Source: Myxococcales bacterium
GTDB taxonomy: Bacteria > Myxococcota_A > UBA9160 > UBA4427
Assembly (NCBI GenBank): GCA_022563535.1
Contig: JADFNE010000033.1
Span: 1-47,761, forward strand
Reading direction: 5' to 3'
Length of the DNA: 47,761 bases
A model generated the notes under the pieces. It searched no databases. It was not told where the DNA came from and worked only from the letters and a program-made list of their open reading frames with translations. Below are positions 7,037-39,189 of the stretch, one piece after another (positions within the stretch are counted from its first letter, which is position 1; every line of letters begins with the position of its first letter). Both the position numbers and the translations under genes were made by a program.

Positions 7037-8881
7037 TCAGTTCACCTCGCGCAAAATTTCGTCGATGGCGCTTCGGATCTCGGCGATCCGGAACGGCTGC
7101 CCAGCGACCTTGTTCAGGGGTTGGATGTCCAACAGAAAGAGAGACCGCAGAATCATGCTCAACTGACCACCGTTGAGTTCTGGCAGCAGGATGTGTTTGA
7201 AATGACTCAGCACATCCTGGAGATTGCTCGGCAGCGGGTTCATGTGCCGGATGTGGATCCGCGAGACGGAGAGCCCGTCCTCTCGCGCTTCATCGACCGC
7301 TGCGGTGATGGCGCCGTTGGTGCTGCCCCAGCCCACCACCAGCAGGTCGCCGGAAGTGGGGCCGTCGACCTCGATGTTGGGAATGTCGGCCACAATTCCC
7401 GCAATCTTATCAGCGCGGAGTTTCAGCATTGCGGCGTGGTTGTCCGGGTCGTAGACCACGTTTCCCGTCACGGGTTCCTTGGTCAGTCCACCCAGACGAT
7501 GCTCGAGTTCCGGTTCGCCCGGAATGGCCCAGGGGCGCGCGAGGGTTTCGGGATCACGCACGTAGGGCATGAACCCCTCTTCTCCGAAGTCCTCGCGCTT
7601 GGCGAAGCGGATCGGCGAGCGCTGAAGTGTCTCGATGTCGGGGATCTTCCAGGGCTCGGAACTGTTCGCGAGGTAGCTGTCCGAGAGCACCATCACCGGC
7701 GTCATGTACTTCACCGCCAGACGGAACGCTTCGATCATCGTGTCGAAGCAGTCGCCGGCGCTCGACGGAGCCAGGATCGGCATTGGGCTTTCGGAGCTTC
7801 GACCGAAGAGGGCGAGGAGCAGGTCGCCTTGCTCGGTCTTGGTCGGCGATCCGGTCGACGGCCCCGCGCGTTGGACATCGATCACCACAAGTGGCAACTC
7901 GACCATGATCGCGAGCCCGATCGCCTCCTGCTTGAGCATGATGCCGGGCCCACTGCTGACGGTGACGCCGAGATTTCCAGCAAACGAAGCGCCGATCGCG
8001 GAACTGACCGCGGCCATCTCGTCCTCGGCCTGGAATGTCTTGATGTCGAAGTTGCGATGTCGCGCGACCTCGTGCAATACGTCGGTGGCCGGCGTGATCG
8101 GGTACGCGCCCAGGAATACCTGGCGGTCCATCAGTACCCGAGCGGCGATGATGCCCCAGGCCAACGCGGTATTGCCCGTGATGTTTCGATAGCTGCCCCC
8201 CTCGATCTTGGCAGCCGGCACCTGGTATGAAACTGGAAACAACTCGGTGGTCTCGCCGAAGGCCCATCCCGAACGCAAGGTGCGGGTGTTGGCTTCGAGC
8301 ACATCCCCCTCGAACTTGTTCCCGAGCCAGCGCTCGGTGCTTTCCATCGGGCGCCCGTACAACCAGGACAACAGGCCCAGGGCGAAGAAGTTCTTGCAGC
8401 GATCGATGGCGCGTTGCGTGAGGTCGAGACCGACCAGGGCTTCGCGATTGAGCGCAGTGAGCGGAATTTCAACCAACTCAAACCGTTCTCGCAAATCGGG
8501 GATTGGGTCTTCGGTGTACCCCGCGCGCTGCCAGGCCTTTTTGTTGAACGCGTCGGAGTTGATGATCAGCATGGCGCCCGGTCGCAGGTCGCCAACGTTG
8601 GCCCTGACCGCCGCCGGATTGAATGCCACGATTACATCCGGGTAGTCGGCAGGCGTGTGGACCCGTTCGGAGGCGAAGTGGATCTGGAACCCCGACACCC
8701 CGGCCAGGGTGCCCGCCGGGGCGCGAATTTCAGCGGGGAAGTCGGGAAAGGTGGAAAGATCGTTGCCCGCCAACGCAGTTTCGTCGGCAAACTTGGTCCC
8801 GGTAAGTTGCATGCCGTCGCCGGAGTCTCCGCAAAAGCGAATAGAAACATCTCGGCGCTTCTCGATTCTTTTGATCTTCAT
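7037..8881 (-). CDS. korA: 2-oxoacid (2-oxoglutarate):ferredoxin oxidoreductase, fused gamma-alpha subunit
   Basis: A 614-residue fused subunit. The N-terminal gamma domain (about 1-190) begins with FCGDSGDGMQLTG, and the alpha pyrimidine-binding domain (about 240-430) has AYPITPATDVLHE and FQAEDEMAAVSSAIGAS. A transketolase-C-like domain completes it. This gamma-alpha fusion is normal for the KorA/OorA class and pairs with KorB immediately downstream. No separate ferredoxin-like delta subunit lies in the window, which is usual for two-subunit KGORs. ATG at 8881 is preferred because it directly precedes the conserved region. The partner genes mdh-sucCD on the other strand support a TCA role. 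Confidence 0.94.
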   Translation of the reverse strand: MKIKRIEKRRDVSIRFCGDSGDGMQLTGTKFADETALAGNDLSTFPDFPAEIRAPAGTLAGVSGFQIHFASERVHTPADYPDVIVAFNPAAVRANVGDLRPGAMLIINSDAFNKKAWQRAGYTEDPIPDLRERFELVEIPLTALNREALVGLDLTQRAIDRCKNFFALGLLSWLYGRPMESTERWLGNKFEGDVLEANTRTLRSGWAFGETTELFPVSYQVPAAKIEGGSYRNITGNTALAWGIIAARVLMDRQVFLGAYPITPATDVLHEVARHRNFDIKTFQAEDEMAAVSSAIGASFAGNLGVTVSSGPGIMLKQEAIGLAIMVELPLVVIDVQRAGPSTGSPTKTEQGDLLLALFGRSSESPMPILAPSSAGDCFDTMIEAFRLAVKYMTPVMVLSDSYLANSSEPWKIPDIETLQRSPIRFAKREDFGEEGFMPYVRDPETLARPWAIPGEPELEHRLGGLTKEPVTGNVVYDPDNHAAMLKLRADKIAGIVADIPNIEVDGPTSGDLLVVGWGSTNGAITAAVDEAREDGLSVSRIHIRHMNPLPSNLQDVLSHFKHILLPELNGGQLSMILRSLFLLDIQPLNKVAGQPFRIAEIRSAIDEILREVN

Positions 8882-12650: not shown

Positions 12651-14006
12651 ATGACGGACGGGTCCATGTCTACTACTCAGAGTGCGCGCCAACCCGCCGC
12701 GATGGAAAAGTTGGTCTCACTGTGCGCGGCGCGGGGCTTTATCTTTGCGTCGAGCGAGATCTATGGCGGCATCAATGGATTCTGGGATTACGGGCCCTTG
12801 GGGGTCGAACTCAAGAACAATCTCAAGGCGCTGTGGTGGCAGCGAATGGTGCGTGAGCGCAGCGATGTCGTCGGAGTCGACACCTCGATCATTGCCCATC
12901 CCCGCACCTGGGAAGCCTCGGGTCATGCAGACAATTTCAGTGATCCCATGGTGGACTGTCGAGCCTGCAAGAAGCGCTTCCGGGCAGATCAGCTCGACGA
13001 TGCGGGGCCGTGTCCGTCGCGCGAGGGAACTTCCGAGCACGACCTCACTGAAGCAAAGAACTTCAACCTGATGCTCGAGACCCAGATCGGCGCGTCGGAG
13101 GACGGCAGCCAGTCGGCGTACCTGCGTCCCGAAACCTGCCAATCGATATTCACCGACTTCAAACGGGTGCGCGAAGCCGCGCGACAGAAGGTGCCGTTCG
13201 GGATCGCACAGATCGGCAAAGCGTTTCGCAACGAAATCACGCCGCGCAACTTCACTTTTCGCTCGCGAGAATTCGAACAGGCGGAGATGGAATTTTTCTG
13301 CCATCCCAGCGAACGCGAAAAATGGTTCGAGTACTGGCGAGCAGAGCGCCTGCAGTTCCACCGCGATATCGGTCTCGCCGACGACAAGATTCGCAACCGG
13401 ACGCACGAATCCGATGAGCTGGCTCACTACGCCAAGGTCGCCGTCGACGTCGATTTTGAGTTCCCGTTCGGCTGGCAGGAAATCGAAGGGGTACACGATC
13501 GCGGAGACTGGGATCTCTCTCAGCACACGGAGTTCTCGGGCAAAGATTTGGCACTGACCGACGAAACCACAAAAGAGAAGTACACCCCGATGGTGATCGA
13601 AACCTCAATGGGGATCGATCGCACTTGTTTGGCGCTGCTCTGCAACGCACTGGAAGAAGAGGCTCTAGAAGACGGGGAAACCCGGACCGTGATGCGGCTG
13701 CACCCGGCCATTGCACCAATCAAAGCGGCGGTGTTGCCGCTGTCGAAGAAACTCTCAGAAGACGCGCGCAAGGTCGCTGAGAGCCTGCGCAAACACTGGA
13801 ACATCTACTATGACGAATCGGGCAATATAGGCCGACGTTACCGACGACAAGATGAAGTCGGAACTCCGTTCTGCATTACCTACGACTTCGACTCCCAGGA
13901 CGACCAGAAAGTAACCGTCCGCGAGCGCGACTCCATGCGGCAAGATCGGGTGCCGATCGACGGGCTGGTCGGCTACCTGAGCGACTTACTGGGGTTTGCT
14001 ACGTGA
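12651..14006 (+). CDS. glyQS: Glycyl-tRNA synthetase, single-chain homodimeric type
   Basis: Class II synthetase charging tRNA-Gly, of the alpha2 type found in archaea, eukaryotes and some bacteria, not the alpha2beta2 GlyQ/GlyS pair. The 451 residues agree with that class. Visible are the N-terminal SSEIYGGINGFWDYGPLG, the motif 2 region RPETCQSIFTDF and AFRNEITPRNF, the EFEQAEMEFF signature, and the motif 3 region ETSMGIDRT. The C-terminal anticodon-binding domain is about 345-445. A CRAC pair and a later cysteine in the insertion may bind zinc. Starts at ATG 12651 and ATG 12666 are both possible. Its stop overlaps the GTG start of ppdK. Confidence 0.95.
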   Translation: MTDGSMSTTQSARQPAAMEKLVSLCAARGFIFASSEIYGGINGFWDYGPLGVELKNNLKALWWQRMVRERSDVVGVDTSIIAHPRTWEASGHADNFSDPMVDCRACKKRFRADQLDDAGPCPSREGTSEHDLTEAKNFNLMLETQIGASEDGSQSAYLRPETCQSIFTDFKRVREAARQKVPFGIAQIGKAFRNEITPRNFTFRSREFEQAEMEFFCHPSEREKWFEYWRAERLQFHRDIGLADDKIRNRTHESDELAHYAKVAVDVDFEFPFGWQEIEGVHDRGDWDLSQHTEFSGKDLALTDETTKEKYTPMVIETSMGIDRTCLALLCNALEEEALEDGETRTVMRLHPAIAPIKAAVLPLSKKLSEDARKVAESLRKHWNIYYDESGNIGRRYRRQDEVGTPFCITYDFDSQDDQKVTVRERDSMRQDRVPIDGLVGYLSDLLGFAT

Positions 14007-16816
14007 GCGCCAGGAAGAAGAGCAAGAAGAGTGCGACTAAAAAGAAGAGCGCGAAGAAAAAGAAATCCGCAACCAAAAAGAAGAGCGCGAAGAAAAAGAA
14101 ATCAGCCGCCAATACGCGCCGAGCAAAATCATCGGTCCAGCGCGTCTATTCCTTCGGCGATGGCAAGGCGGATGGTTGCGCGGACATGGGCGACCTGCTC
14201 GGGGGGAAGGGGGCCAACCTCGCCGAGATGTCCGCGCTGGGCATTCCGGTGCCGCCCGGCTTCACAATCACGACCGAAGTCTGTGGCGAGTTCAATCGAA
14301 GGGACGGCGTCATCTCGCGCGGGATCCGTGGGGAGATCGTCGCGGCCATTGCCATGGTCGAGCGGAACATCGGCGCCCGCTTTGGCGACGCCGAAAACCC
14401 GCTGCTGATTTCGGTGCGCTCCGGGGCTCGCGCATCGATGCCCGGCATGATGGACACGATTCTCAATCTCGGACTGACGAACGAAACCGTTCTCGGGCTC
14501 GCCGCGCGTGCGAATGAACGCTTTGTCTACGACAGCTATCGACGCTTCATACAGATGTATGGCGATGTGGTGCTGAACGTCCCGCGAGACCGCTTCGAGA
14601 TGCGGATCGACGATACGAAGCACGCCAAGGGAATCGACCTCGACACCGACCTCGATACCGAGGATCTCAAGCGGTTGGTTCGCGACTTTCTGGAGATCGC
14701 CGAAGAGCACACCGGCGAGCCGTTTCCCCAAAATCCGATGGAGCAACTCTGGGGGGCAATCGGTGCGGTCTTCAGCTCCTGGCAGAACCAACGGGCCAAG
14801 ATTTACCGTCGCCTGCACGGCATCTCGGAGGCCTGGGGCACCGCAGTCAACATTCAGGCGATGGTGTTTGGCAATATGGGCGACGACTGCGCGACCGGCG
14901 TGGCGTTTACCCGGGATCCAGCTACCGGCGAGAAGCAATTCTATGGCGAGTATCTCACGAACGCCCAGGGTGAGGACGTCGTAGCCGGTGTCCGGACCCC
15001 TCAGCCGATTAACGAGGCGAGCCGCACCGCGGACACCAGGGACCTCCCGACCCTCGAATTGGAGATGCCCGGCGCCTATCGGGAACTGGTCGGCATCTAC
15101 AAGCGTCTCGAAAAGCACTACCGAGACATGCAGGACATCGAATTCACCATTCAGCAGGGCAAGCTCTGGATGCTTCAAACCCGCACCGGCAAGCGCACGA
15201 CCACCGCGTCGGTGAGAATTGCCGTCGAAATGGCAGAGGAGCGCTTGATCACCCGCAAGCAGGCCATTTCGCGGGTTGATGCCACCTCGCTGGACCAGCT
15301 CTTGCACCCGACCCTGGATCCCGATGCCGTCTGCGATGTCATCGCGCGGGGCTTGCCGGCCTCGCCCGGGGCGGGGGTAGGCGTCGTGATCTTTGACAGC
15401 GAGCGCGCGGACATGCGCACCAAGGCCGGCGAAAAGGTGATCCTGGTCCGGATAGAAACGTCTGCGGAAGACATCGGGGGTATGCACGCATCCGAGGGGG
15501 TCTTGACGGCTCGCGGCGGGATGACCTCCCACGCCGCGGTCGTCGCGCGGGGTATGGGGAAGAGTTGTGTCACCGGTTGTTCGGCACTCGAGATCGACTA
15601 CGACCAACGCCGGATGCGCGTAGGCGAACTCGTCATCAAAGAGGGAGACGTCGTCACGATCGACGGGGGTACCGGTGAACTGATGTTGGGTGAGGTTGCG
15701 ACGGTGACCCCCGAGGTCGGCGAGTCCTTTGCCAAGCTGATGAGTTGGGCAGACAAAGTGCGAAAAATCCGGGTGCGGACCAATGCCGATACCCCTGCAG
15801 ATGCAAGGCTTGCGCGGGAATTCGGTGCCGAGGGAATCGGCCTCTGCCGCACGGAACACATGTTCTTCGAGCCCGATCGAATCCTGCTCGTGCGGGAGAT
15901 GATTCTCGCCCGCAACGTCGAGGAGCGCGCCAAACCCCTCGCAGAGCTGTTGCCCGTGCAGCGCGACGACTTCGCCGAGATCTTCCGAGCCATGGATGGA
16001 CTGCCGGTGACGATCCGTCTGCTCGATCCGCCACTGCACGAATTCCTGCCCCAGAGCGATGCCGCCATCGTGGAGCTCGCCGAAGCGTTGGGAGTCCAGG
16101 TTGCAAAGGTGCGGGCAAATCTCGCGGCACTTCACGAATTCAATCCCATGCTCGGCCACCGGGGATGCCGCCTGGGGGTGACGTATCCGGACATTTACCG
16201 TATGCAGGTGCGTGCCATCACCGAAGCGGCGTGTGTGGTGGAGGCCGAGGGGATCAAGGTGCTCCCCGAGATCATGATCCCATTGGTGAGCCATCACGGA
16301 GAACTCGCCCTGTTGCGCCGCCAGGCCGAGGTCGTAATCGAAGAGGTGCGAAGCCAATTTGCGGGGTCTCGGGTGCGGCCGAGTATTGGCACCATGATCG
16401 AAGTGCCGCGGGCTTGCCTGACGGCCGACGTGATCGCCCGCGAAGCCGACTTCTTCTCCTTTGGCACCAACGATCTCACGCAGATGGGCTATGCGCTTTC
16501 CCGGGACGATTCTGGGAAGTTTTTGCCCGACTACATCGAGGCCGGGATTCTCGAAGACGATCCCTTCGTCTCCGTGGACGAGGAGGGGATCGGGGAGTTG
16601 GTCAAGATGGGGGCCCAAAAGGGCAGGGCGACCAAGCCAAACCTCAAACTGGGGATCTGTGGTGAGCACGGAGGAGACCCCAAGAGCGTGAAGTTCTTCG
16701 CGCGGATCGGTCTGGACTATGTTTCCTGTTCGCCGTTTCGCGTGCCCGCTGCACGGTTGGCGGCCGCCCAGGCGGCGATCGAAGCCATTGACGGCAGCGA
16801 TGGATCGAGGAGCTAG
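14003..16816 (+). CDS. ppdK: Pyruvate, phosphate dikinase with lysine-rich N-terminal tail
   Basis: Interconverts pyruvate + ATP + Pi and PEP + AMP + PPi. The 937 residues are about 45 more than usual. The canonical protein begins near residue 47 (VYSFGDGKADG). In order it has the ATP-grasp nucleotide domain, the phosphohistidine domain with catalytic His510 in GGMTSHAAVVARG, and the C-terminal PEP/pyruvate barrel with EVPRACL and the near-C-terminal GICGEHGGDP. The extra N-terminus is almost only Lys, Ser and Ala, with a 12-residue unit repeated twice. No start codon lies between the tail and the conserved region, and GTG 14003 overlaps the glyQS stop, so the tail seems truly translated. Its role is unknown; nucleic-acid or membrane association is possible. 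Confidence 0.95.
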   Translation: MSARKKSKKSATKKKSAKKKKSATKKKSAKKKKSAANTRRAKSSVQRVYSFGDGKADGCADMGDLLGGKGANLAEMSALGIPVPPGFTITTEVCGEFNRRDGVISRGIRGEIVAAIAMVERNIGARFGDAENPLLISVRSGARASMPGMMDTILNLGLTNETVLGLAARANERFVYDSYRRFIQMYGDVVLNVPRDRFEMRIDDTKHAKGIDLDTDLDTEDLKRLVRDFLEIAEEHTGEPFPQNPMEQLWGAIGAVFSSWQNQRAKIYRRLHGISEAWGTAVNIQAMVFGNMGDDCATGVAFTRDPATGEKQFYGEYLTNAQGEDVVAGVRTPQPINEASRTADTRDLPTLELEMPGAYRELVGIYKRLEKHYRDMQDIEFTIQQGKLWMLQTRTGKRTTTASVRIAVEMAEERLITRKQAISRVDATSLDQLLHPTLDPDAVCDVIARGLPASPGAGVGVVIFDSERADMRTKAGEKVILVRIETSAEDIGGMHASEGVLTARGGMTSHAAVVARGMGKSCVTGCSALEIDYDQRRMRVGELVIKEGDVVTIDGGTGELMLGEVATVTPEVGESFAKLMSWADKVRKIRVRTNADTPADARLAREFGAEGIGLCRTEHMFFEPDRILLVREMILARNVEERAKPLAELLPVQRDDFAEIFRAMDGLPVTIRLLDPPLHEFLPQSDAAIVELAEALGVQVAKVRANLAALHEFNPMLGHRGCRLGVTYPDIYRMQVRAITEAACVVEAEGIKVLPEIMIPLVSHHGELALLRRQAEVVIEEVRSQFAGSRVRPSIGTMIEVPRACLTADVIAREADFFSFGTNDLTQMGYALSRDDSGKFLPDYIEAGILEDDPFVSVDEEGIGELVKMGAQKGRATKPNLKLGICGEHGGDPKSVKFFARIGLDYVSCSPFRVPAARLAAAQAAIEAIDGSDGSRS
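14039..14103 (+). repeat. 29-bp direct repeat (36-bp period) in the ppdK 5' end
   Basis: Identical 29-base copies at 14039-14067 and 14075-14103 encode the repeated 12-residue Lys/Ser/Ala unit of the PPDK tail. It is purine-rich on the coding strand. Copy number could vary by recombination or slippage in frame, since the period is 12 codons. Confidence 0.85.
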
Positions 16817-27803: not shown

Positions 27804-29597
27804 ATGTCTACCACCACGCACAAAACGAAAGACAATGGGAGTGCCGGTAGCGGCCCATGGATGGATTCACGGCGCGTCGTCCTGCTGTGCGGGGTGATCG
27901 CCATCGTTGTGGTTCGCTTGCTTTCCATCTACACCGAGAGTGTGAACTGGGACGAATTCAACATCGTTCACAACGCCGCCTGGACGGTTCAATCCGGCGA
28001 ATTGCACGCGGGAGGGCGACCGGGTCTGGCCGTGTTGGTGCTGCTTCCGTTCGTTGCCGATTGTCAAAACGAAATTGTGGTTGTGCAGAGGGCGCGGATC
28101 CTCTGGATGGTCTTCACCCTGGTGAGTCTTGTCGGCTTCGGATGTCTGATCCGACAGCTGGGGCAGAGCCTCTCGCGACGCAATACCGATGCGCTGCTGG
28201 GTGTCGCGCTGCTCGCGTTGGTGCCGGATTTTCTGGTCTGGTCGATCCAAATACGCGCCGATCAGCTCGCGATCGCTGCGGCGATGTGGGGTGGTGTTGC
28301 CTTGATGGCGTCCCGTCGTGTACCGGGCTGGGCATCGGCTGCGGGACTCTTGTTCGGCTTGGGGACCCTGTCGAGTCAGAAAGCAGTCTACTTGATTGCA
28401 CTGTTCGGGCTGTTGGCAGCCGCTGACGTGTGGCGAGCGCGCGAGCGTCAATTTACCCGGGAAGGGCTTCGCTGCGTTCTGTGTTTTTCGGCGATGGGAA
28501 TGGTGATCGTCGGGTTCTACACACTGATGCCACAGATTTTTGGTGCCGGCGCCGAAGCTCATGCGAATGCGCTTTCTGTACCGCTGCCGGCACTCACCGC
28601 CGAGAGCGCGGGAAACCAGTTGAAGTTTCAGTTGAACGTCTTCGACTATTACCGGTCGACCATCGGATATTCACAGTATGTCGAAATGTTGCCGACCCTG
28701 GTTCCCCAGCTGTGCCTAGCCGGATTGATGGCGATCGCGACGCTGCGGCTTGCAGTGCGAAGACGCCTTCCGCCTTTTTCGTTGGTCGTGGCCTGGGCCG
28801 TCATGGCGCTTGGACTGGCGGTCGGATTGTTTCACGCCGGAGCCTTCAAGTACTTCTGGATGACCTTGGGGGTGTTTCCAGCGGTAGCACTGGTGCTTGC
28901 TCGTGAATCCGTCGAAGCGCTTCTCGATTCGTGGGGGCAGCCCCTGCGCCGGGGCGCAGTCGTTTTGTTTTGGTGTGTGCTGATCGTTCCCGCGCTGGTC
29001 CAGAGCGTGCAGTTGCTTTCGGATACCCAGGAGGTTCAGCGACAGACCTTCGATTTTGCCCGGAGCAACTTCGCGCCATACGAAGCGGGGTTTCACGCAG
29101 AGGCGGGGCTCTTCTGCAGTGATGATGCGAATCAATTTCCGGCCTATTTCTCGCAGTTGATCGAGCGAAAATTTGGCGCCGCGGCCGGCTGCGCGGAGTG
29201 CGCGCCCAATCTGATCCGCGAGTTCGAACAGAAGCAAGTCAAGTACGTGGTGGCTTCGTTTCGGCTGACTCAATTTCCGCCGATCGTTCAAACGTTCTGG
29301 CAGGAGAACTACTTGCCGTACCACGGTTCGCTGATGGTGGCAGGAAAGTTCTTGAAGGCAGATCGCGACCAGGGACACCTCGAACTCGTGATCGACGGAG
29401 ACTACCTATGGCTTCCCAACAAGCCGCCTGCGGAAGTAACGATCGACGGCAAACTCGTCCGCACGGGAGAGCGAGTGACGCTTGTGAGGGGAGGGCACGA
29501 GGTGCGCTTTAGCGATCGCGATACTGCTGGCATGCTTGTGTTGGCGATGGACGGTCCGCCGCAGTTGCCACTTCGTCAGTTCTATCGGGATTTCTGA
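27804..29597 (+). CDS. GT39/ArnT-like membrane glycosyltransferase
   Basis: A GT-C fold protein of 597 residues. At least nine hydrophobic segments are followed by a soluble domain of about 170 residues at the C-terminus. The first periplasmic loop carries NWDEF with Asp50-Glu51, the position of the catalytic acid in PMT/ArnT/PglL-type enzymes. Such enzymes take a sugar from a polyprenyl-phosphate donor and add it to protein or lipid on the periplasmic side. The start is 19 bases after pilD on the same strand, so pilin glycosylation is a reasonable guess. The C-terminal soluble part has two paired cysteine motifs (CSDD and CAEC). Confidence 0.82.
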   Translation: MSTTTHKTKDNGSAGSGPWMDSRRVVLLCGVIAIVVVRLLSIYTESVNWDEFNIVHNAAWTVQSGELHAGGRPGLAVLVLLPFVADCQNEIVVVQRARILWMVFTLVSLVGFGCLIRQLGQSLSRRNTDALLGVALLALVPDFLVWSIQIRADQLAIAAAMWGGVALMASRRVPGWASAAGLLFGLGTLSSQKAVYLIALFGLLAAADVWRARERQFTREGLRCVLCFSAMGMVIVGFYTLMPQIFGAGAEAHANALSVPLPALTAESAGNQLKFQLNVFDYYRSTIGYSQYVEMLPTLVPQLCLAGLMAIATLRLAVRRRLPPFSLVVAWAVMALGLAVGLFHAGAFKYFWMTLGVFPAVALVLARESVEALLDSWGQPLRRGAVVLFWCVLIVPALVQSVQLLSDTQEVQRQTFDFARSNFAPYEAGFHAEAGLFCSDDANQFPAYFSQLIERKFGAAAGCAECAPNLIREFEQKQVKYVVASFRLTQFPPIVQTFWQENYLPYHGSLMVAGKFLKADRDQGHLELVIDGDYLWLPNKPPAEVTIDGKLVRTGERVTLVRGGHEVRFSDRDTAGMLVLAMDGPPQLPLRQFYRDF

Positions 29598-29632: not shown

Positions 29633-31024
29633 TTAGTAGGCGCCCTTTCGGGTGAGTACGACTCCGATGGTTCGCAGCATGATCGAGAAATCGAACAGGA
29701 GAGATCGGTTGCGGATGTAGTAGAAGTCATACTGAAGGTTCTCTGTCATCGGGAGTTCCTTGCGGCCTAGGATCTGCCACAGGCCGGTGATCCCCGGCAG
29801 CACCGCGAGTCTTCGGCGCTCCCATTCATCGTATTTTTCGACCAGGAACGGCATTTCGGGGCGAGGGCCGACCAGGCTCATCTCGCCTCGCAGCACATTC
29901 ACCAGTTGTGGGAGTTCGTCGATACTGGTGTTGCGCAACCATTGGCCGAAGCGAGTGAGGCGCGGGTCATTGCCGCGCTCGGGAGAAGCCGCGTAGGAAT
30001 CAACGTCGGTGCGCATGGTTCGGAGCTTGTAGGTGATGAAGGGCTTGCCGGACTTGCCGATGCGGGTCTGGGTAAAGATGGCCGGCCCTGGACTTTCTTG
30101 TCGAATACGCATGGCGCACAGCGCCAGGATCGGGAGGCTGAGCGCGAGCATGATGCTTCCCAAGACCAGGTCGGTCCCGCGCTTGGCCACGTCATAGAAC
30201 ACGTGTACTCCCGGACGTCCCAGGCGTACCAAGGGCAGATCGTCGATCAAGTCGACGGGGGTACCCGCGGTCAGAACTTCGAACAGGTTGGTCACCACCC
30301 GGAACGTCATTCCGAGATCTTCCAGGTCGAGCACCATGGCGAGCATTCGCGTATGTCCCATCGAGGGCAGCGCCACGAAGACTTCTTCGACCTGCTGTTC
30401 GACGGCGACCCTGCGGATATCGTCCACCAGGCCCAGGACCGGACGGTTGGAGATGTCCTTGGGAAGCTCTGCCGGGTCTTCGGTCAGAAAACCGACCACG
30501 CGGTAACCCGTCTCGGGATGATCTTGCAGCTTCTGCAGGAGTCGAATCGCGTTGATTCCGGTTCCGATAATCAGCGCTGGAACTTCGGACTTGCCATTGC
30601 GTTGAAGGTGTCGGGAAATCTTGTAAAAGGCGACGCGGCTGGTTCCCTGAAGGACCAGGTTCAGCCCGCCCAGGAGCAGGATGACGGTTCGGCTGAATTC
30701 GAACTGCTTGAAGAAAAAGAAGCTCACCGCACTGATCACGACCACGCCGAGGAACACCCCTTTGAACAGGTTCTGGATGTGATCGACCAGGGTGCTCATG
30801 CGTGCGCTTCGATAGATGTCGAACCACCAGCAGGTCGCGATCCATGGGACGACGATCGCGGGCAGCGCAACTCGATAGGCATCGAAAGCGTTCGGAGGGT
30901 TGCCGATCACGCCGCTGAGGGCGACGCGAAGCCAATAGGCGCCGACCCAGGCCGCAGAGACCAGCAGAATGTCGGTTCCGATATGAATGCGGCGCAGGGT
31001 TTTCGCATTGATCTTCGTCATCAT
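29633..31024 (-). CDS. Undecaprenyl-phosphate sugar phosphotransferase (WbaP/WcaJ type)
   Basis: Starts polysaccharide repeat synthesis by moving a sugar-1-phosphate from a UDP-sugar to undecaprenyl phosphate. It has 463 residues from the paired ATGs at 31024. In order: four N-terminal transmembrane helices, a CoA-binding-like Rossmann domain ([14 protein letters not shown]), a fifth membrane element, and the C-terminal bacterial sugar transferase domain. The last domain has [30 protein letters not shown] with VGPRPE, and [10 protein letters not shown] longer frame upstream looks non-coding. It converges on the GT39 gene with 35 bases between stops. The acceptor/donor pair is likely UDP-glucose or UDP-galactose but is not shown. 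Confidence 0.93.
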
Positions 31025-31333
31025 GGTGGGGGCGTTCAGGCCTCCTCGGGCCCGGCCGTATTCGTGAGCGAGAACGGTTCTGAGTGTCGATCCTTTGTCG
31101 GATGGTCCGCGACTGCGCTTGAGACGCGACGGGCGTGCCCACAGGGCGATCCTGGGGGCCGCTCCCGGGGAAAGAGGAGTGAGAATCAACTTCTCGGCCT
31201 TGAGTTGCATCGCGGTGCGGCCGATGGACCAAAGACGCGGGCCGCGGCGGGGGCGGCGTTCTCTGTCCCAATCCACCCGTGCGCGAAGTACCACAGCAAA
31301 TACAAGACCACGATTGCACTTGCACTCTAGGGG
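31025..31333. other. Divergent promoter region between sugar transferase and MBL operon
   Basis: 309 bp between divergent genes. Several GC-rich runs are seen (for example around 31240-31260), but no clear hairpin, sigma-54 site or small gene. It must contain promoters for the minus-strand sugar transferase and for the plus-strand six-gene operon. None could be placed with confidence. Confidence 0.35.
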
Positions 31334-32104
31334 ATGGATGTGGGAATCGAGCTTAGCTGGCTGGGACAGTCTGGAGTCAGGCTGAACGCCAATGGCATTG
31401 TTCTTTATGTCGATCCCTACCTCTCTGACTCGGTCGAGAATGTCCACGGTCCCGAGTATCGGCGTCAGCGGCCAATCCCGATGGCGCCTGCCGAAGTCGA
31501 TGACGCCGACTATGTACTGATTACCCACGAGCATCTCGATCACTGCGATCCCGAGACCCTTCCCGCAATCGCCGTCGCTTCGCCCGGGTGTTCGTTTCTG
31601 GCGCCCCGGGAACTTCGGAAAACGCTGCTCGGATTTGGCATTGGCGAGGAGAGAATCCTGCCCGCAGACGAGTCTTGGTTATCGCTTGGGCCCGGAGTTC
31701 AGGTGCATCCAGTTCCCGCAGCGCACCCGGCCGTGGAACGCGATGGAGACGGTTGCCTCCGCTACTTGGGGTTCGTGATCGATTGTGGGGGAAAGAGGAT
31801 CTATCACGCGGGGGACACGTCACCCCACGAACACGTGATCGAAGCGCTGAACGCGCTCGCGCCCATTGCTGTGGCCATCTTGCCGGTCAACGAATTCAAT
31901 TTCTTCCGCAGTCGAAAGGGAATCGTCGGGAACATGAGCGTGCGTGAAGCTTTTGGCCTGGCCGAAGAAATTGGAGCCGAGATGGTGGTGCCTGTTCACT
32001 GGGACATGTTTGCGCCGAACTGCACCTACCCTGAAGAAATCGAGTTGATATACGACAAGTTGGAGCCCCCTTTTGAACTCTGTTTCGAACCGTCGGAGTT
32101 CTAG
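31334..32104 (+). CDS. UlaG-like metallo-beta-lactamase fold hydrolase
   Basis: A protein of 256 residues. Metal ligands His65, His67, Asp69 and His70 (HEHLDHCD), then HAGDT (His158, Asp161) and a late histidine in VPVHWDMFAPN, which resembles UlaG (L-ascorbate-6-phosphate lactonase). It is soluble and probably binds two metal ions. It heads a compact operon of sugar enzymes: GT2 follows after nine bases. A lactonase or phosphodiesterase step on a sugar acid is plausible. The family is broad, so the real substrate is open. Confidence 0.82.
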   Translation: MDVGIELSWLGQSGVRLNANGIVLYVDPYLSDSVENVHGPEYRRQRPIPMAPAEVDDADYVLITHEHLDHCDPETLPAIAVASPGCSFLAPRELRKTLLGFGIGEERILPADESWLSLGPGVQVHPVPAAHPAVERDGDGCLRYLGFVIDCGGKRIYHAGDTSPHEHVIEALNALAPIAVAILPVNEFNFFRSRKGIVGNMSVREAFGLAEEIGAEMVVPVHWDMFAPNCTYPEEIELIYDKLEPPFELCFEPSEF

Positions 32105-32113
32105 GTCAAATTC

Positions 32114-33055
32114 ATGCTGGTGAGCATCATCATTCGCACGCTGGACGAGGAACGGCACCTTCAGTCGTTGCTCGAAGGAATCGAGTCCCAGGAGACTCCG
32201 GGTCTCGAGGTTGAAACCGTGCTGGTCGATTCCGGGTCGGAGGATCGAACCCTCGAGATCGCCGAGGAGTACGGCTGCAAGATCGAACACATTTCGCGCG
32301 AAGACTTCAGCTTCGGACGTTCGCTAAACCAGGGCTGTGCTCGGAGCCAGGGCGAAATTCTGGTCTTCGTAAGCGGCCACTGCGTCCCCTGCGATGCGCA
32401 CTGGCTCGCGCGCCTCTGCGAGCCCATCCGGGACGGTCGAGTGCAGTACGTCTACGGAGCACAGTACGCCGGGCCGACGACCCGCTTTAGCGAGGCTCGG
32501 TTGTTTGAACGGCAATACCCGGAGACCAGTGCCGTCCCCCAACAGGGAATATTCTGCAACAACGCAAACGCCGCGCTGCGACGCGATGTCTGGGACAAGT
32601 TTCAATTTGCGACCCATTGCTCGGGTCTCGAAGACATGGAGTTGGCGAAGCGGATTACTCGAGCGGGTCACGCGATTGGCTATGAGGCCGGGGCCAAGGT
32701 CTTCCATCACCACGACGAGCGCTGGAAGGAAATTCGCTGGCGGTTCGAACGCGAAGCCCTGGCACTTCAAGAAATCTTGCCGGACGTGCACATCAGTCGG
32801 ATGGATTTTGCGCGCTACTTCGTGAGCGCGGTGGCGCACGACCTGGCTCGGGCCCGGGAGCAGGGAATCGCGATTCGCAAACTCCACGAAATCGTTTGCT
32901 TTCGCTGGCAGCAGTATCTCGGGTCTTATCGCGGCAATCACAAGCTGCGGATGCTCTCGCGCCGAATCAAGGATCAATACTTCTATCCGAAGCGGATCGA
33001 TCTCTCCGATCATGTTGACGATGCTCGCCCGGATACCGGAGCCCATCGTGAGTGA
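32114..33055 (+). CDS. Family 2 glycosyltransferase
   Basis: A protein of 313 residues with a GT-A fold. The N-terminus SIIIRTLDEERHLQ is typical of GT2. VLVDSGSEDRT carries the nucleotide-binding aspartate, and a second acidic motif lies near VSGHCVPCD where DxD is usual. GLEDMEL matches the ED catalytic motif. No transmembrane helix is evident, so it works at the cytosolic membrane face. The C-terminal 80 residues are basic and helical. It belongs to the coupled operon; the next gene starts inside its last codons. Confidence 0.9.
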   Translation: MLVSIIIRTLDEERHLQSLLEGIESQETPGLEVETVLVDSGSEDRTLEIAEEYGCKIEHISREDFSFGRSLNQGCARSQGEILVFVSGHCVPCDAHWLARLCEPIRDGRVQYVYGAQYAGPTTRFSEARLFERQYPETSAVPQQGIFCNNANAALRRDVWDKFQFATHCSGLEDMELAKRITRAGHAIGYEAGAKVFHHHDERWKEIRWRFEREALALQEILPDVHISRMDFARYFVSAVAHDLARAREQGIAIRKLHEIVCFRWQQYLGSYRGNHKLRMLSRRIKDQYFYPKRIDLSDHVDDARPDTGAHRE

Positions 33056-33752
33056 AACCGGAACGTCAAATCGAGTTGTCGCGCTACTTCCGATGAAGGC
33101 GCACAGTGAACGGCTCTCGGGCAAGAATTTCCGAGAGTTTTGCGGCAAGCCACTGTTTCGCTGGGTGCTCGACGCGTTGCTCGGTGTCGAAGAAATCGAT
33201 CTGGTCGTAATCAATACCGACGCCCGAGAGATCCTGGCGAGCCACGGTCTGGAGGCGGGCGACCGAGTGCAGATTCGCGACCGCAAGGACGAACTGTGCG
33301 GCGACTTCGTCAGCATGAATCTCATTCTCGAAGACGACCTCCGGGCCGTGCCCGCCGACAGCTACCTGATGACCCACACGACCAACCCGCTGCTGAGTCG
33401 CGGCACCATCCAAAGCGCACTCGCGAGCTACTTCGAGGGAAAGAAGGAAGGGCTCTGCGATTCGCTCTTCACCGTCAACAGGTTCCAGACTCGCTTCTAT
33501 CGCGGTGATGGCAGCGCGGTCAATCACAACCCCGAGCAGTTGCTTCGTACCCAGGATCTCGAAGTCTGGTACGAGGAAAATTCGAACCTCTACATCTTCG
33601 ATCGCGAGAGCTTTGCGCAGACGCACGCCCGCATCGGTAGCGAACCGAAGTTCTTCGAATCGCCGCTCTGCGAGGCGGTCGACATCGACGACGCCGCGAG
33701 CTGGCACCTGGCCGAGTTGATCGCACGGGGCATGACGGGAGAAGCCTCGTGA
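33048..33752 (+). CDS. NeuA/CMP-acylneuraminate synthetase-like cytidylyltransferase
   Basis: A protein of 234 residues from GTG 33048 (GGAG upstream, overlapping the GT2 stop); ATG 33012 is an alternative. The N-terminal pattern LLPMKAHSERLSGKNFREF corresponds to the CTP-binding P-x-R-x(4)-R-x-x-x-K-N motif of CMP-sialic acid and KdsB-type synthetases, with Met-Lys in place of Ala-Arg. FESPLCEAVDIDD near the end matches the conserved acidic metal site. It should activate a 2-keto-3-deoxy sugar acid or related acid with CTP. No NeuB/KdsA-type synthase is in the window. It is shorter than many NeuAs but within range. Confidence 0.85.
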   Translation: MSETGTSNRVVALLPMKAHSERLSGKNFREFCGKPLFRWVLDALLGVEEIDLVVINTDAREILASHGLEAGDRVQIRDRKDELCGDFVSMNLILEDDLRAVPADSYLMTHTTNPLLSRGTIQSALASYFEGKKEGLCDSLFTVNRFQTRFYRGDGSAVNHNPEQLLRTQDLEVWYEENSNLYIFDRESFAQTHARIGSEPKFFESPLCEAVDIDDAASWHLAELIARGMTGEAS

Positions 33753-34702
33753 AGATTTTGATCACCTGCCCGCCGATGCTGGGATTCATCGAGCAGTTTG
33801 CCCCGCTGATGCGCGAACGGGGCCTGGACTTCGATGCCCCCAGCCTCACCCAGACCATGCCCGAACGAGAACTCGAGAAGTGCATTGGTGATTACGACGG
33901 TTGGATCATCGGGGACGATCCCGCGACTCGGGCGGTCTTCCAGGCCGGCGTGCGCGGAAACCTCAAGGCCGCGGTCAAGTGGGGGGTCGGAATCGACAAC
34001 GTCGATATGGCGGCTGCCCGGGAACTCGGAATCCCCATTGCCAACACGCCGCAGATGTTCGGCGATGAAGTCGCCGATGTTGCGCTCGGATACTTGATCG
34101 GACTCGCCCGAGATCTATTCGTCATCGATCGATCGGTTCGCGATGGGGGATGGGATAAGCGCCGGGGAATTTCGCTGTCGGGAAAGTGTGCCGCGCTGGT
34201 CGGTTTCGGCGACATCGGTCGTGCACTGGCGCGGCGGTTGGTCGCGATTGGCATGAAAGTCATTGCTTACGATCCAAACTTTGTGCCTCAGCCGGGGCTC
34301 GAAGCGATCGAATCCGCAGTCTGGCCGGATCGACTCGAAGAAGCCGACGCGTTGTTGTTCACCTGTGCGCTGAACGAGAAGAACCATCACATGCTCGGTC
34401 CGGCAGAACTCGCACGGGTAAATCCCGGCCTGCGTGTCGTCAATGTGTCCCGGGGTGGGCTGATCAATGAATCGGCCCTGATCAGCGCGCTCGAGCAGGA
34501 GCGTGTTCACTCCGTTGCGCTGGATGTCTTTGAGACGGAGCCGTTGCCCGAGCGATCGCATTTGCGTGCCTTTGGCGATCGGGTCGTATTTGGTGCGCAC
34601 AATGCTTCCAATACCGAGGACGCCGTGATCCGCGCAAGCTATCGCGCTCTCGACCTGCTCTGCGGGTTCCTCGGTATTCCGGTCTCGGACACCTCCCCAT
34701 GA
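33749..34702 (+). CDS. D-isomer-specific 2-hydroxyacid dehydrogenase (SerA-like)
   Basis: A protein of 317 residues whose GTG start overlaps the previous stop (GTGA). It has the NAD domain with VGFGDIGRALARRL, and the catalytic set Arg235 (NVSRGG), Glu262/Glu264 (DVFETEPLP) and His284 (GAHNAS). The WGVGIDNVDMAAARELGI segment is typical of phosphoglycerate dehydrogenases. No regulatory ACT domain is present. Within a sugar operon it more likely oxidises or reduces a 2-hydroxy acid of the sugar pathway than makes serine. That role is inferred from context only. Confidence 0.87.
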   Translation: MKILITCPPMLGFIEQFAPLMRERGLDFDAPSLTQTMPERELEKCIGDYDGWIIGDDPATRAVFQAGVRGNLKAAVKWGVGIDNVDMAAARELGIPIANTPQMFGDEVADVALGYLIGLARDLFVIDRSVRDGGWDKRRGISLSGKCAALVGFGDIGRALARRLVAIGMKVIAYDPNFVPQPGLEAIESAVWPDRLEEADALLFTCALNEKNHHMLGPAELARVNPGLRVVNVSRGGLINESALISALEQERVHSVALDVFETEPLPERSHLRAFGDRVVFGAHNASNTEDAVIRASYRALDLLCGFLGIPVSDTSP

Positions 34703-35451
34703 AGACCGCGCTGATCACCGGGGCCGCCGGCGGAATTGGACAAGCGCTCTGCCTGGCGTTTCGCCGGGCGGGATATCGCGTGGTCGGAACGGACCTGAAG
34801 CCCGATGCGCACGACGGCAATGACGGTCCGGACTGCGATGCCTTCGTCTGTGCCGATCTCTTGTCGATCGTGCAAGACGAGCAAATCCAATGCGACGTCG
34901 TCCAGAGTCTACGAGCAGCACTCGGGACGACGGAATTGACGGTCTTGGTGAACAATGCGGCGCTTCAGGTCGTCGGGCGTGCAGCAGACCTGACCGTTCG
35001 CGACTGGCAGCGCAGTCTCGACACCAACGTCGTCGCCCCCTTTGCGTTGATCCAAGGGCTGTTGCCCGAACTCAAGAGGGCGCGGGGCTCGGTGGTGAAC
35101 ATTGCGAGTGTTCACGCGCAGCTCACCAAGCCCGGCTTTGCGGCCTATGCGACGAGCAAGGCCGCGCTGGTCGGACTCACGAAGAGCCTGGCGGTCGATC
35201 TCGAGGGTTCGGTACGCGTGAACTGCATCAGTCCTGCGGCCACCGAAACGCCAATGCTCGTCGCAGGTTTCAACGGTCGCGAAGAAGCCCTCGCGCAACT
35301 CGCGCAGTGTCATCCGCAGGGCCGGATCGCTGCGCCCGACGAAGTCGCCCGGGTCGCGGTGTTTCTGGCGAGTGACGATGCATCGTTCGTGAATGGCGCG
35401 GTCCTCGATGTCAACGGAGGGATCGGGGCCCGGCTCCACGATCCGGAGTAG
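34699..35451 (+). CDS. Short-chain dehydrogenase/reductase
   Basis: A classical SDR of 250 residues. TGAAGGIG (7-14) binds NAD(P), and NNAAL, the IASVHA serine, and Tyr150/Lys154 (YATSK) form the active site. DVNGGIGA closes the fold. An ATGA overlap couples it to the dehydrogenase. In Campylobacter, PtmA (SDR) and PtmB (NeuA-like) likewise stand together in nonulosonic acid synthesis, which supports a sugar role. The cofactor preference is not clear, although Asp in GTDLKP favours NAD(H). Confidence 0.9.
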   Translation: MKTALITGAAGGIGQALCLAFRRAGYRVVGTDLKPDAHDGNDGPDCDAFVCADLLSIVQDEQIQCDVVQSLRAALGTTELTVLVNNAALQVVGRAADLTVRDWQRSLDTNVVAPFALIQGLLPELKRARGSVVNIASVHAQLTKPGFAAYATSKAALVGLTKSLAVDLEGSVRVNCISPAATETPMLVAGFNGREEALAQLAQCHPQGRIAAPDEVARVAVFLASDDASFVNGAVLDVNGGIGARLHDPE

Positions 35452-35456
35452 TTGCG

Positions 35457-37415
35457 ATGCAAAGCCCTTCGTTTCGTCTCCGCAGCTGTCTGCCCATCCT
35501 CCTGCTCGCATTGATATTGCGCCTCGCTGGCATTGCGACCGAGTCGTTTTGGGTCGACGAAGCCTTTAGCGCGACCGCGAGCCAGGGCTCTTTGAGCGAG
35601 ATCCTGGAAACGAACGCGCGGGATACCCATCCCCCGGCGTACTACCTGGGCCTGTCCCTGTGGCGGCAGATGTTGCCGAGCGACGAATCCCAGACGGACC
35701 CGACAACCCTGGCCGTCGCCCTGCGCGGATACAGCGTAGTTTGGAGCCTGCTCGGAATTTTTCTGTTGATGGAACTCGCCAGAACCATGGCGGGCAACGG
35801 CACCGCGCAATTCGCCGGGATCTTTGCCGCTGTAAACCCGCTCGAGATCTACTTCGCCGACGAAGCCCGTATGTACACCCAGGCGGCTGCCCTTTCACTC
35901 GGCTCCGCTCTGGCCTTGTGGCACTGGACGCGCGCTGTGAGAAACGGTGCGGCGGTAGCCGTCTGGTGGAAGGCCGCGGCGGCGTTCGCCCTGTGCGGAG
36001 TAGCGTTGCTCTTCACTCACTACGTTGGTGCGACGCTACTCGTGGGACAAGGGATGTTGGCGTTGCTGATCTTTGCGCGGCAAAGAGCGTGGTCCGCCGT
36101 TGCCGGTCTGGCGCTCGCGGCCATCGCGGTCGGCTTGATGTTCTCGCCCTGGCTCTTCTACGTCCTGGGATTCCGGGAGTCCCTCGTCAACGAGGTGGGC
36201 CTGGACTGGATGCCGTTTCCCGGTGTCGTCGACTACTTCTCCTTCGTCGGTCGCGAGTTCTTCTGGGGCAGGGCGCTCACGATTCATCAGCACGCGCAAT
36301 GGTGGATTCCAACAGCCTTGCTACCCGTGGGCATCTTTGCCGCGGCGATCTACCTGCGCGCACACGACGCGTCGCGCTCCGGTCGCGACGCTGCCCTGCA
36401 TTTGCTCGGACATATCGCCTTTCCCCTGCTGGTCTGTGCAGTGATTTGTGCCAGCTATCAGGTGGTCTATTACCGACCTCGCTACAGCATCTTTCTGCTT
36501 CCGTATTTCCTGATCGGGCTGGCGATGGCGTGTCGAGGGCTCGGTTCGCGACCTGCGATCAAACTGTCCGCACTGGCCGTGGTCTGCATGATGCTCGTCG
36601 GGGCGGGAGTACAGGAACAGACTGCTCAAAAACACGCCTGGCGCGAAACTGCAGAGGGTTGGCCGGCGATGGACGCCCCCGCCTTCTATGTCGTGCTTCC
36701 CGCTCGCCATCAACGGCCGCTCGGCCACTATCTGGGCGGCCGAATTCGCCACACCCCTCGCCACGTTCTCGAGCGACTCGGACCGCTGCCCAGAGGTGCT
36801 GTCATCTGGGTTGCGAACTGGCCCGAGTCTCTTGAGCCAGCGGATGCAAAGTACCGAGATTGGTTGAAAAGTGTGGGGTCAGCACGCCACCAAACATTGT
36901 CCAGCTACTACAGTCTCACCCAGGTCGAACCCGAGGGTGGCGAGGCAATACCCTCGTATGCCGCAGAGCGATTTCGCGCGTGGTATCGCCCCTTCGATGT
37001 TCGCGGCGAGGTCGCGGGCTTTAGCGACGCTGCTCGCTTCGGGCCGCTTTCTTTCGACGCGCTGGGGCAGGCGGTGCGAAAGAGTGAGCACAGCGCCTGG
37101 CTTCGCTTTGATCGAATCGTGGCGGGTGATGTGCTGGTTCTTCGGGCCAGCCCGCAAGGCAGCCCGCAAGGTGTAGAAGAGGGGGCTGCTCTCAGCCTGC
37201 GTGCGCTTCGCGCCGAGGATCCGAGTCGACTCTTCACCGCGGGCACTGATGTGAGCTTCGACGCGGCGAGTTCGGAGTATCAGGTGACCGCACCGCCCGG
37301 CGATGCGCCATTCTGGATCGGCTGGCAGATCCCCGAAGCCTCGGGAAACGCTCTGTTGCTGCACTGGGTCGGGATTGCGCCGGGCCGAGCAGTGGGGATG
37401 GCAATCCTCGACTGA
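35457..37415 (+). CDS. GT39-like membrane glycosyltransferase (second)
   Basis: A GT-C protein of 652 residues with about ten membrane helices in the first 400 residues and a periplasmic beta-rich C-terminal domain of about 250. FWVDEAFS (Asp34-Glu35) is the catalytic loop, followed by a THPPAYYL motif in the second half of the same loop, as in many PMT_2 family members. It starts five bases after the SDR. It could transfer the sugar made by the operon onto a lipid or protein. It differs clearly in sequence from the first GT39 gene next to pilD. Confidence 0.86.
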   Translation: MQSPSFRLRSCLPILLLALILRLAGIATESFWVDEAFSATASQGSLSEILETNARDTHPPAYYLGLSLWRQMLPSDESQTDPTTLAVALRGYSVVWSLLGIFLLMELARTMAGNGTAQFAGIFAAVNPLEIYFADEARMYTQAAALSLGSALALWHWTRAVRNGAAVAVWWKAAAAFALCGVALLFTHYVGATLLVGQGMLALLIFARQRAWSAVAGLALAAIAVGLMFSPWLFYVLGFRESLVNEVGLDWMPFPGVVDYFSFVGREFFWGRALTIHQHAQWWIPTALLPVGIFAAAIYLRAHDASRSGRDAALHLLGHIAFPLLVCAVICASYQVVYYRPRYSIFLLPYFLIGLAMACRGLGSRPAIKLSALAVVCMMLVGAGVQEQTAQKHAWRETAEGWPAMDAPAFYVVLPARHQRPLGHYLGGRIRHTPRHVLERLGPLPRGAVIWVANWPESLEPADAKYRDWLKSVGSARHQTLSSYYSLTQVEPEGGEAIPSYAAERFRAWYRPFDVRGEVAGFSDAARFGPLSFDALGQAVRKSEHSAWLRFDRIVAGDVLVLRASPQGSPQGVEEGAALSLRALRAEDPSRLFTAGTDVSFDAASSEYQVTAPPGDAPFWIGWQIPEASGNALLLHWVGIAPGRAVGMAILD

Positions 37416-37470
37416 TTTTGCATTGTCTGTCGAGTCGATACGCCCAGCCAATCCCAGCCAAGCAAAGAAA

Positions 37471-39189
37471 TTGGAGAAGGTTTTGCCCGGACCCGGTAAT
37501 TGGAACTTGATTGGACAGACCCTGTCCAATCGCTACGTGGTCGAATCGGAGTTGGGCGCTGGAGGCATGGCGACGGTCTATTCCTGTATGGACCAGACCC
37601 TCGGCCGCAAAGTTGTCATCAAGGTTCCCCACGCCGAGTTGCTGCAACAACCCGGCTTTCGCGAGCGCTTCATCGAAGAAGTGCGCAGTCTGATCGCCCT
37701 CGTGCATCCCCATATTCTGCCCATCCAGGACTACGGTGAGTTCGAAGGCGTCCCCTTTTGCGTAGTGGCCTATTTCTCGGGCGGCGATCTCCGGATGAAG
37801 ATGGACGCGTCCGATGGTCGTATCGCCCTCAGCGAACTCGATCAGTGGGTTCCCCAGATTGCGAGCGCCCTCGACTTCATGCACTCGAAGGGCATCGTCC
37901 ACCGGGACATCAAGCCAGACAACATCTTGTTCGACGAACAGGGCAATGTGTTGCTTTCCGATTTTGGTATCGCCACGGTGATGCACGATCTGAGTCCGGA
38001 TCAAACCCAGATTGCCCCCCAGCTCACCCAGGTCGGAACCTTCGTCGGCACCACTGCATACGCTCCTCCCGAGGCGATTCGGCGCGAACTGTCTGGGGCC
38101 TACGATCAGTACAGTCTCGGGGTCACGATCTATCTCGGGCTTTCTGGCGAGATGCCGATTCGGGCGTCGACTCCCGAAGAGACGCTCGTCCTCAAGTCCA
38201 GCCAGGATGCGATTCCGATCAGCGACGTGGTGAAGGATATTCCGGACGCAGTTGCAAAGGTGATCATGAAGTCGATCGCCCGGGATCCCAAGGAGCGATT
38301 CGCCTCCTGTACCGAGTTTGCCAGGGCATTGTCCCGCGCGACGGCCCCCGCATCGCCGCAGTCACGCAACACCATCGCGGCGATCGCCGGATTATTTGCG
38401 CTCGGGGCTCTAGCCTTTGGACTGTACTTCTTCACCCGCAGCGAAGAGATCGCAGTTCCGGCGTCACTCCCCGGAACCGTCTTCGAGGCGGGCAGCACCC
38501 CAGAAGAGATTTCCGCCGCGATGACCCTGTGCGCGCAATACCAGCAGAGCTGCGATCCTCGCGACTACGAATCGGAGATTCTGCGGGAGGTCCGGATCGC
38601 GGACATCGAGGCCGATCGCACCGAGGTCACAAACGCCGAGTTTGCCGAGTTCGCAACTGCGACGGGTCATATCACCGATGCCGAGACGAAGGGTTTGAGC
38701 CACCACGATGGTTGGATTGAACAGGCGGGATGGAATTGGCGCAACGTCGATGGCTCCGGGGCGACCCCCAGTGTCGAGCACCCGGTGGTCCACGTGAGTC
38801 AAAAGGATGCGGCTATGTACTGCGAATGGGCGGGCAAGCGTCTGCCGACCGAAGTCGAATGGGAGTTCATCGCCCGAGGCGTCGAACGGCGAGTCTTTCC
38901 GTGGGGCAATGAGTGGGATGGGTCGCGGGTTCGTTGGAAGGACGGGTCCAAGATCTCGCTCGAACCCGTGGGTTCATATCCACTCGGCGCGACCCCCGAT
39001 GGCTTGCAAGACCTCGCGGGCAATGTCTGGGAATGGACTTCGAGCCGTACGAATGCCGGGAAGTCGGTCTTGAAAGGTGGTGCCTGGAATACCGACAATC
39101 CTGCGTACTTGCGCTCGGCGATGCGCGCTGACGAGCTGGCGGACTTCAGCAGCGACGACGCCGGTTTCCGCTGCGTTCTCGACCTGTAG
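37471..39189 (+). CDS. Ser/Thr protein kinase fused to an FGE/SUMF1-like domain lacking catalytic cysteines
   Basis: About 572 residues; the start is uncertain (TTG 37471 used, TTG 37483 or 37507 possible). Cytoplasmic kinase domain: GAGGMATVY, Lys51, HRDIKPDN (144-151), DFGIA (164-168) and APPE in place of APE. A single membrane helix follows at about 300-322, then a periplasmic domain with the FGE-sulfatase/SUMF1 fold: VTNAEFAEF, GKRLPTEVEWEFIARG, FPWGNEWD, LQDLAGNVWEW and GGAW...GFRC. True formylglycine-generating enzymes need two cysteines after the GGS segment. Here those places are NTD and AYL, so the domain probably acts as a ligand sensor. The DUF4384-OmpA gene follows on the same strand. 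Confidence 0.9.
   Translation: MEKVLPGPGNWNLIGQTLSNRYVVESELGAGGMATVYSCMDQTLGRKVVIKVPHAELLQQPGFRERFIEEVRSLIALVHPHILPIQDYGEFEGVPFCVVAYFSGGDLRMKMDASDGRIALSELDQWVPQIASALDFMHSKGIVHRDIKPDNILFDEQGNVLLSDFGIATVMHDLSPDQTQIAPQLTQVGTFVGTTAYAPPEAIRRELSGAYDQYSLGVTIYLGLSGEMPIRASTPEETLVLKSSQDAIPISDVVKDIPDAVAKVIMKSIARDPKERFASCTEFARALSRATAPASPQSRNTIAAIAGLFALGALAFGLYFFTRSEEIAVPASLPGTVFEAGSTPEEISAAMTLCAQYQQSCDPRDYESEILREVRIADIEADRTEVTNAEFAEFATATGHITDAETKGLSHHDGWIEQAGWNWRNVDGSGATPSVEHPVVHVSQKDAAMYCEWAGKRLPTEVEWEFIARGVERRVFPWGNEWDGSRVRWKDGSKISLEPVGSYPLGATPDGLQDLAGNVWEWTSSRTNAGKSVLKGGAWNTDNPAYLRSAMRADELADFSSDDAGFRCVLDL

Follow-up and report, generated by a model that had tools for sequence, protein, structure and literature searches.

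Gene organization of the cassette

The window analyzed here is a stretch of 47,761 nucleotides from Myxococcales bacterium (GenBank assembly GCA_022563535.1) and comprises one entire contig (JADFNE010000033.1) of a 4.6 Mb draft genome. Positions 31,334–37,415 carry six genes on the forward strand that overlap or are separated by close gaps, as the initial annotation had described. The first five encode a metallo-β-lactamase (MBL)-fold hydrolase, a GT2-fold glycosyltransferase, a NeuA-like cytidylyltransferase, a D-2-hydroxyacid dehydrogenase, and a short-chain dehydrogenase (SDR). Together, these five genes constitute a conserved cassette, which we found in at least nine bacterial phyla and for which no description was found in the open-access literature.

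31334..32104, + strand: MBL-fold hydrolase, UlaG-like, proposed lactonase (Lactamase_B_2, 1.4e-22)
32114..33055, + strand: GT2-fold glycosyltransferase (Glycos_transf_2, 7.4e-19)
33012..33752, + strand: NeuA-like cytidylyltransferase (CTP_transf_3, 1.8e-15)
33749..34702, + strand: D-2-hydroxyacid dehydrogenase, proposed aldonate 2-dehydrogenase (2-Hacid_dh_C, 1.7e-42)
34699..35451, + strand: SDR, proposed aldose 1-dehydrogenase (adh_short_C2, 3.4e-49)
35457..37415, + strand: polytopic membrane protein of GT-C-like appearance; sixth gene, specific to the lineage (unmatched in Pfam and NCBIfam)

The MBL and GT2 genes are separated by a 9-base gap. The GT2 and NeuA-like genes overlap by 44 bases if the full open reading frame (ORF) is taken. 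Homologues of the NeuA-like protein begin near residue 13, which corresponds to a GTG at 33048; this codon is probably the true start and leaves an overlap of 8 bases (GTGAGTGA). The next two junctions are GTGA (NeuA-like/dehydrogenase) and ATGA (dehydrogenase/SDR), and a 5-base gap precedes the gene for the membrane protein. Pfam and NCBIfam supported five of the six family labels given in the initial annotation; the sixth, GT39, is a weak label that neither database supported. Only in L013/L059, a related genome, does a homologue of the membrane protein (50% identical) lie next to SDR. We dropped gene six as a cassette member because it occurs only in close kin; the conserved set comprises five genes.

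Conservation and spread

We scanned 84,980 species genomes for relatives of the NeuA-like protein and analyzed the best 80 of 172 confirmed candidates, which are 60–74% identical to the protein in the window. These 80 loci are distributed among Pseudomonadota (41), Verrucomicrobiota (14), Cyanobacteriota (8), Planctomycetota (6), Nitrospirota (5), and four more phyla; cultured carriers include Richelia, Methylobacillus, Desulfobulbus, Sulfitobacter, and Solimonas. GT2 and NeuA-like genes are adjacent in at least 64 loci and NeuA-like and dehydrogenase genes in at least 62. The trio is contiguous in at least 56 loci, the trio plus SDR in at least 32, and all five genes in at least 15. These counts are lower bounds because some contigs are cut. 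Three other genomes of the same taxonomic order contain the five genes in the same order (one contig ends within the dehydrogenase), and the closest relative in the scan belongs to the same genus of Myxococcota. The recurrence of gene order and strand in other genomes argues that the clustering did not arise by chance.

Within Myxococcota, only 4 of 284 genomes contain the cassette, and phyla are intermixed in the tree of NeuA-like proteins. Together, these findings indicate that the distribution is patchy and that the cassette is probably mobile. The interior of the tree is poorly resolved, with 40 of 83 inner branches open; therefore, lineages were counted cautiously. Viral contigs and phage records yielded no relatives. 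One locus, from a Roseicyclus metagenome-assembled genome (MAG; L068), carries two NeuA-family copies within 7 kb (7504–8175 and 13686–14345) that are 64% and 49% identical to the protein in the window.

The NeuA-like cytidylyltransferase

The NeuA-like protein matches the CTP_transf_3 profile with 57.7 bits (cut-off 22.6). Its AlphaFold2 (AF2) model, which has a predicted local distance difference test (pLDDT) score of 88.5, most closely resembles PpNeuA CMP-Kdn synthetase (9t4z; Z 25.6, root-mean-square deviation 2.2 over 217 residues). NeuA enzymes occupy the top eight structural ranks, and NeuA-type structures score higher (Z 20.2–25.6) than IspD/TarI (at most 20.1) or KdsB (at most 19.8). 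D224 and D226, which correspond to the Mg-binding D209 and D211 of the Neisseria meningitidis enzyme, are kept in all 81 sequences, so that the loss of catalytic residues considered in the initial annotation was not seen; S32, K38, N39, Q181, and N190 are also kept. Because the CTP and Mg residues are intact and the model lies nearest to NeuA enzymes, the protein is read here as a functional enzyme that activates a sugar acid.

The sugar pocket differs from that of the N. meningitidis enzyme, in which Gln104, Lys142, Arg165, and Phe192-Phe193 bind the sugar (PMC2901514). These residues are replaced by His, Gln, Thr, and Arg-Ile, respectively. Features specific for N-acetylneuraminic acid (Neu5Ac) are thus missing: Thr180 takes the place of the carboxylate-binding Arg165 in 81 of 81 sequences, and Arg207-Ile208 that of Phe192-Phe193 in the N-acetyl pocket. 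An Arg-[Ile/Leu]-Gly motif in this pocket is shared with CMP-Kdn synthetase 9t4z, which has Arg-Leu-Gly. From this one motif, the activated acid probably lacks a 5-N-acetyl group. The protein scores below the cut-offs of the NCBIfam equivalog PseF (69.8 bits, cut-off 205.7) and of the best KdsB model (27.2 bits, cut-off 193); all 75 members compared match the PseF model, the comparison with its cut-off referring to the protein in the window.

NeuB and KdsA

The usual source of CMP-activated sugar acids is a NeuB- or KdsA-type condensation. As noted in the initial annotation, the cassette contains neither synthase, and none of the 80 loci contains a NeuB-like gene. A NeuB match of at least 150 bits is missing from 27 of the 53 cassette genomes checked, weaker matches being read as DAHP-synthase-like. 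Five genomes (Richelia sinica, Aphanocapsa, a Gloeobacterales MAG, a Kuenenia-labelled MAG, and Sphingomonadales EhC05) have neither NeuB nor KdsA over the cut-off, an absence that is not absolute because several of the five are drafts. We rejected a NeuB-linked origin of the NeuA-like protein: even its closest relatives among NeuB-linked cytidylyltransferases share only about 30% identity with it and fall outside the cassette clade. There is good support for NeuB-independent activation of a sugar acid. Elsewhere, a NeuB-domain gene lies at 8266–9147 of L015 (G000:C31), and the adjacent ORF contains epimerase-like and ATP-grasp-like stretches; the 18 kb around this gene contain no relative of the cassette cytidylyltransferase.

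Dehydrogenases, aldolase, and lactonases

The D-2-hydroxyacid dehydrogenase matches both Pfam domains over the cut-off, and its catalytic residues R235, E264, and H284 are at least 95% conserved (n = 69). One relative listed in the PDB is named 2-ketogluconate reductase. The SDR, which is of the classical type, retains the triad S137, Y150, and K154 (at least 95%, n = 49) together with the TGxxGIG motif (T7-G8, G11-G12-I13-G14); its best NCBIfam model is a glucose 1-dehydrogenase subfamily (168.8 bits, below the cut-off of 215). In seven Verrucomicrobiota loci that lack the dehydrogenase, the cassette GT2, and SDR, an HpcH/HpaI aldolase gene stands beside or near NeuA. None of the 70 dehydrogenase-bearing loci contains the aldolase (overlap 0; Fisher 4e-8, unadjusted for kinship). 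The aldolase loci represent at least two lineages, in which this pyruvate-type aldolase takes the place of the dehydrogenase. Either route would give the activator a 2-keto acid.

In the MBL protein, the HxHxDH motif (H65-x-H67-x-D69-H70) and the additional metal-binding residues H131, D161, and H222 are invariant in an alignment of 32 sequences. UlaG structures are among its PDB sequence matches; it scores 53.5 bits against the NCBIfam equivalog for UlaG (L-ascorbate-6-phosphate lactonase), which has a cut-off of 306. SMP-30/gluconolactonase genes, which encode an unrelated lactonase, occur in eight loci compared with 0.36 expected (from about 72 strong matches in 50 genomes, with genome size taken as 4.4 Mb). 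All eight loci lack MBL, and in five the SMP-30 gene lies directly behind SDR. In those MBL-less cassette genomes that were searched, the MBL orthologue was missing from the entire genome. The resemblance to UlaG and the occurrence of SMP-30 where MBL is absent suggest that the MBL protein is a lactonase.

The GT2 glycosyltransferase and its surroundings

The AF2 model of the glycosyltransferase (pLDDT 89.7) is matched best by GT2 structures (Z about 22). S87-G88-H89 stands at the position of the DxD motif, with S87 aligned to the first Asp of the DxD in TarS; S-G-H-C is invariant in 61 of 61 sequences, and the acidic base E173-D174 is invariant too. A transferase that uses a CMP-sugar has no diphosphate for which a metal is needed, and thus the missing DxD fits a CMP donor. 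We rejected it as proof of such a donor, as the His could still bind metal. MptE-like (PF01973) proteins, which carry an NGPSL motif, are encoded in 47 of the 80 loci (e.g., L036 15391–16191 and L100 2146–2865); they may be further transferases that could use the same donor.

Upstream of the cassette lies a divergent gene that we regard as context outside it:

29633..31543, − strand: divergent polyprenyl glycosylphosphotransferase, N-terminally over-long ORF (Bac_transf, 1.3e-60; TIGR03025 above cut-off)

This gene keeps its position in the relatives L020 and L059. A nucleotide-sugar epimerase-like gene and a WecG/TagA-like gene, the latter so labelled from sequence appearance, lie downstream of the run. 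Together with the glycosylphosphotransferase, they point to a surface-polysaccharide setting. The neighbor at 27804–29597 has only a sub-threshold PMT_2 match. Directly after the six genes, 37303–39189 (+ strand) encodes a fusion of a Ser/Thr protein kinase domain with a formylglycine-generating-enzyme (FGE-sulfatase) domain.

Proposed pathway and alternatives

The initial annotation had suggested that a lactonase, dehydrogenases, and a CTP-using activator fit an acid-sugar route, a suggestion strengthened by the conservation of the cassette and its intact catalytic residues. We propose, at a little less than an even chance, that the cassette enzymes synthesize and transfer a CMP-activated ald-2-ulosonic acid with no condensation by NeuB or KdsA. 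The SDR would oxidize C1 of an aldose to a lactone, which the MBL enzyme (or the SMP-30 lactonase in other genomes) would open to the aldonate. The 2-hydroxyacid dehydrogenase would then oxidize C2 of the aldonate to give a 2-keto acid, followed by ring closure. The NeuA-like enzyme would join CMP to this acid, and the GT2 enzyme lacking DxD would move the ulosonate into a surface glycan. This course from aldose through lactone, aldonate, and 2-ketoaldonate to CMP-ulosonate was suggested by the lactonase pattern and the two sources of a 2-keto acid, dehydrogenase and aldolase; each reaction, the order of steps, and the nature of the sugar are predictions from sequence. More tentatively still, and with some doubt, we extend this reading to a widespread, horizontally spread oxidative route to CMP-ulosonic acids without NeuB or KdsA in which the DxD-less GT2 uses a CMP-sugar donor.

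Several observations weigh against this proposal. Thr occurs throughout the family at the position where the N. meningitidis enzyme uses an Arg to bind the ulosonate carboxylate; we rejected this as evidence against any ulosonic acid, since CMP-Pse synthetase 9ftb has Ser at that position. Neither lactonase is encoded in 41 of the 80 loci and SDR is missing from 30, some contigs being cut in both cases. The mutual exclusion of MBL and SMP-30 is by itself modest (P 0.016), and the loci are related by descent. MBL and GT2 are fused in frame at nine loci (L030, L033, L035, L048, L060, L080, L086, L089, and L095; 551–595 amino acids); because MBL is fused to GT2 and not to a dehydrogenase, it may act near the transfer step. 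On the Acuticoccus plasmid (L101, 7201–10362), HpcH/HpaI aldolase, NeuA-like protein, 2-hydroxyacid dehydrogenase, and a haloacid dehalogenase (HAD) hydrolase are encoded in one run. Finally, the window's own genome encodes NeuB on a different contig, where no cytidylyltransferase gene adjoins it.

This last observation would suit a model in which the NeuA-like enzyme activates an ordinary nonulosonic acid or 3-deoxy-D-manno-octulosonic acid (Kdo) supplied by a NeuB or KdsA that is encoded at another locus of the genome, the dehydrogenases and MBL protein serving to tailor that sugar. NeuB is indeed present in 26 of the 53 cassette genomes in addition to the window's own, and KdsA in most. We consider this model unlikely in view of the 27 genomes without NeuB, the five without both synthases, the absence of NeuB from all 80 loci, and the distance of NeuB-linked relatives from the cassette clade. 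The Acuticoccus arrangement, with its aldolase, dehydrogenase, and HAD phosphatase, fits instead a CMP-3-deoxy-ulosonic acid formed by an HpcH/HpaI-type aldolase encoded elsewhere, with the dehydrogenase supplying or removing (hydroxy)pyruvate. An aldolase adjoins NeuA in the seven loci described above; however, it is missing from all 70 of the loci with the dehydrogenase, and the recurrent lactonase and SDR would be unexplained, which makes this route equally improbable.

A further possibility, to which we give no greater weight, is that the NeuA-like enzyme forms a CMP or CDP ester of a short 2-hydroxy acid or its phosphate (e.g., glycerate) and that the dehydrogenase works reductively. Phosphoglycerate dehydrogenases are the best-scoring matches of the dehydrogenase in NCBIfam and the PDB; the NeuA-like enzyme lacks the Arg with which CMP-Neu5Ac synthetase binds the carboxylate; and its fold is common to IspD and TarI, which use phosphates. 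NeuA-type structures nevertheless outscore IspD and TarI, and such a reaction has no need for lactonase and sugar-dehydrogenase partners.

Relation to known systems and significance

Like the NeuB-NeuA pathways to CMP-Neu5Ac, CMP-legionaminic acid (Leg), CMP-pseudaminic acid (Pse), and CMP-Kdn, the cassette has a CTP-dependent activator of the NeuA fold with its metal aspartates kept, adjacent to glycosyltransferase genes in surface-glycan regions. It differs in lacking NeuB, phosphatase, and amino-sugar genes, in having oxidative enzymes and a lactonase, and in its changed sugar pocket. The Kdo pathway (KdsA-KdsC-KdsB) likewise involves CMP activation of a 2-ulosonic acid, as proposed for the cassette, which lacks KdsA and whose activator is structurally nearer to NeuA than to KdsB. 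Oxidative aldose catabolism combines SDR, a lactonase (SMP-30 or MBL), and aldonate oxidation as we propose here. However, the cassette has no dehydratase and adds a CTP activator and a glycosyltransferase, an association that argues for a biosynthetic rather than a catabolic role. In the open-access literature we found no related operon to which a known route had been attributed; such an operon would, according to the initial annotation, have refuted its proposal. A 4-deoxy-2-hexulosonic acid is part of the Escherichia coli K3 capsule (Dengler et al. 1988, cited in PMC10433991); by its sugar, this capsule offers a precedent for a short-chain 2-ulosonic acid in a bacterial surface polysaccharide.

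If the proposal is correct, a second, oxidative route to CMP-activated sugar acids would extend over nine phyla that include cyanobacteria, Nitrospira, planctomycetes, and roseobacters. The label "acylneuraminate cytidylyltransferase" carried by such genes, including one plasmid copy, would mean something else, and the cassette would provide new enzymes for CMP-sugar synthesis. Surveys of genomes based on NeuB would have overlooked a class of acidic surface sugars.

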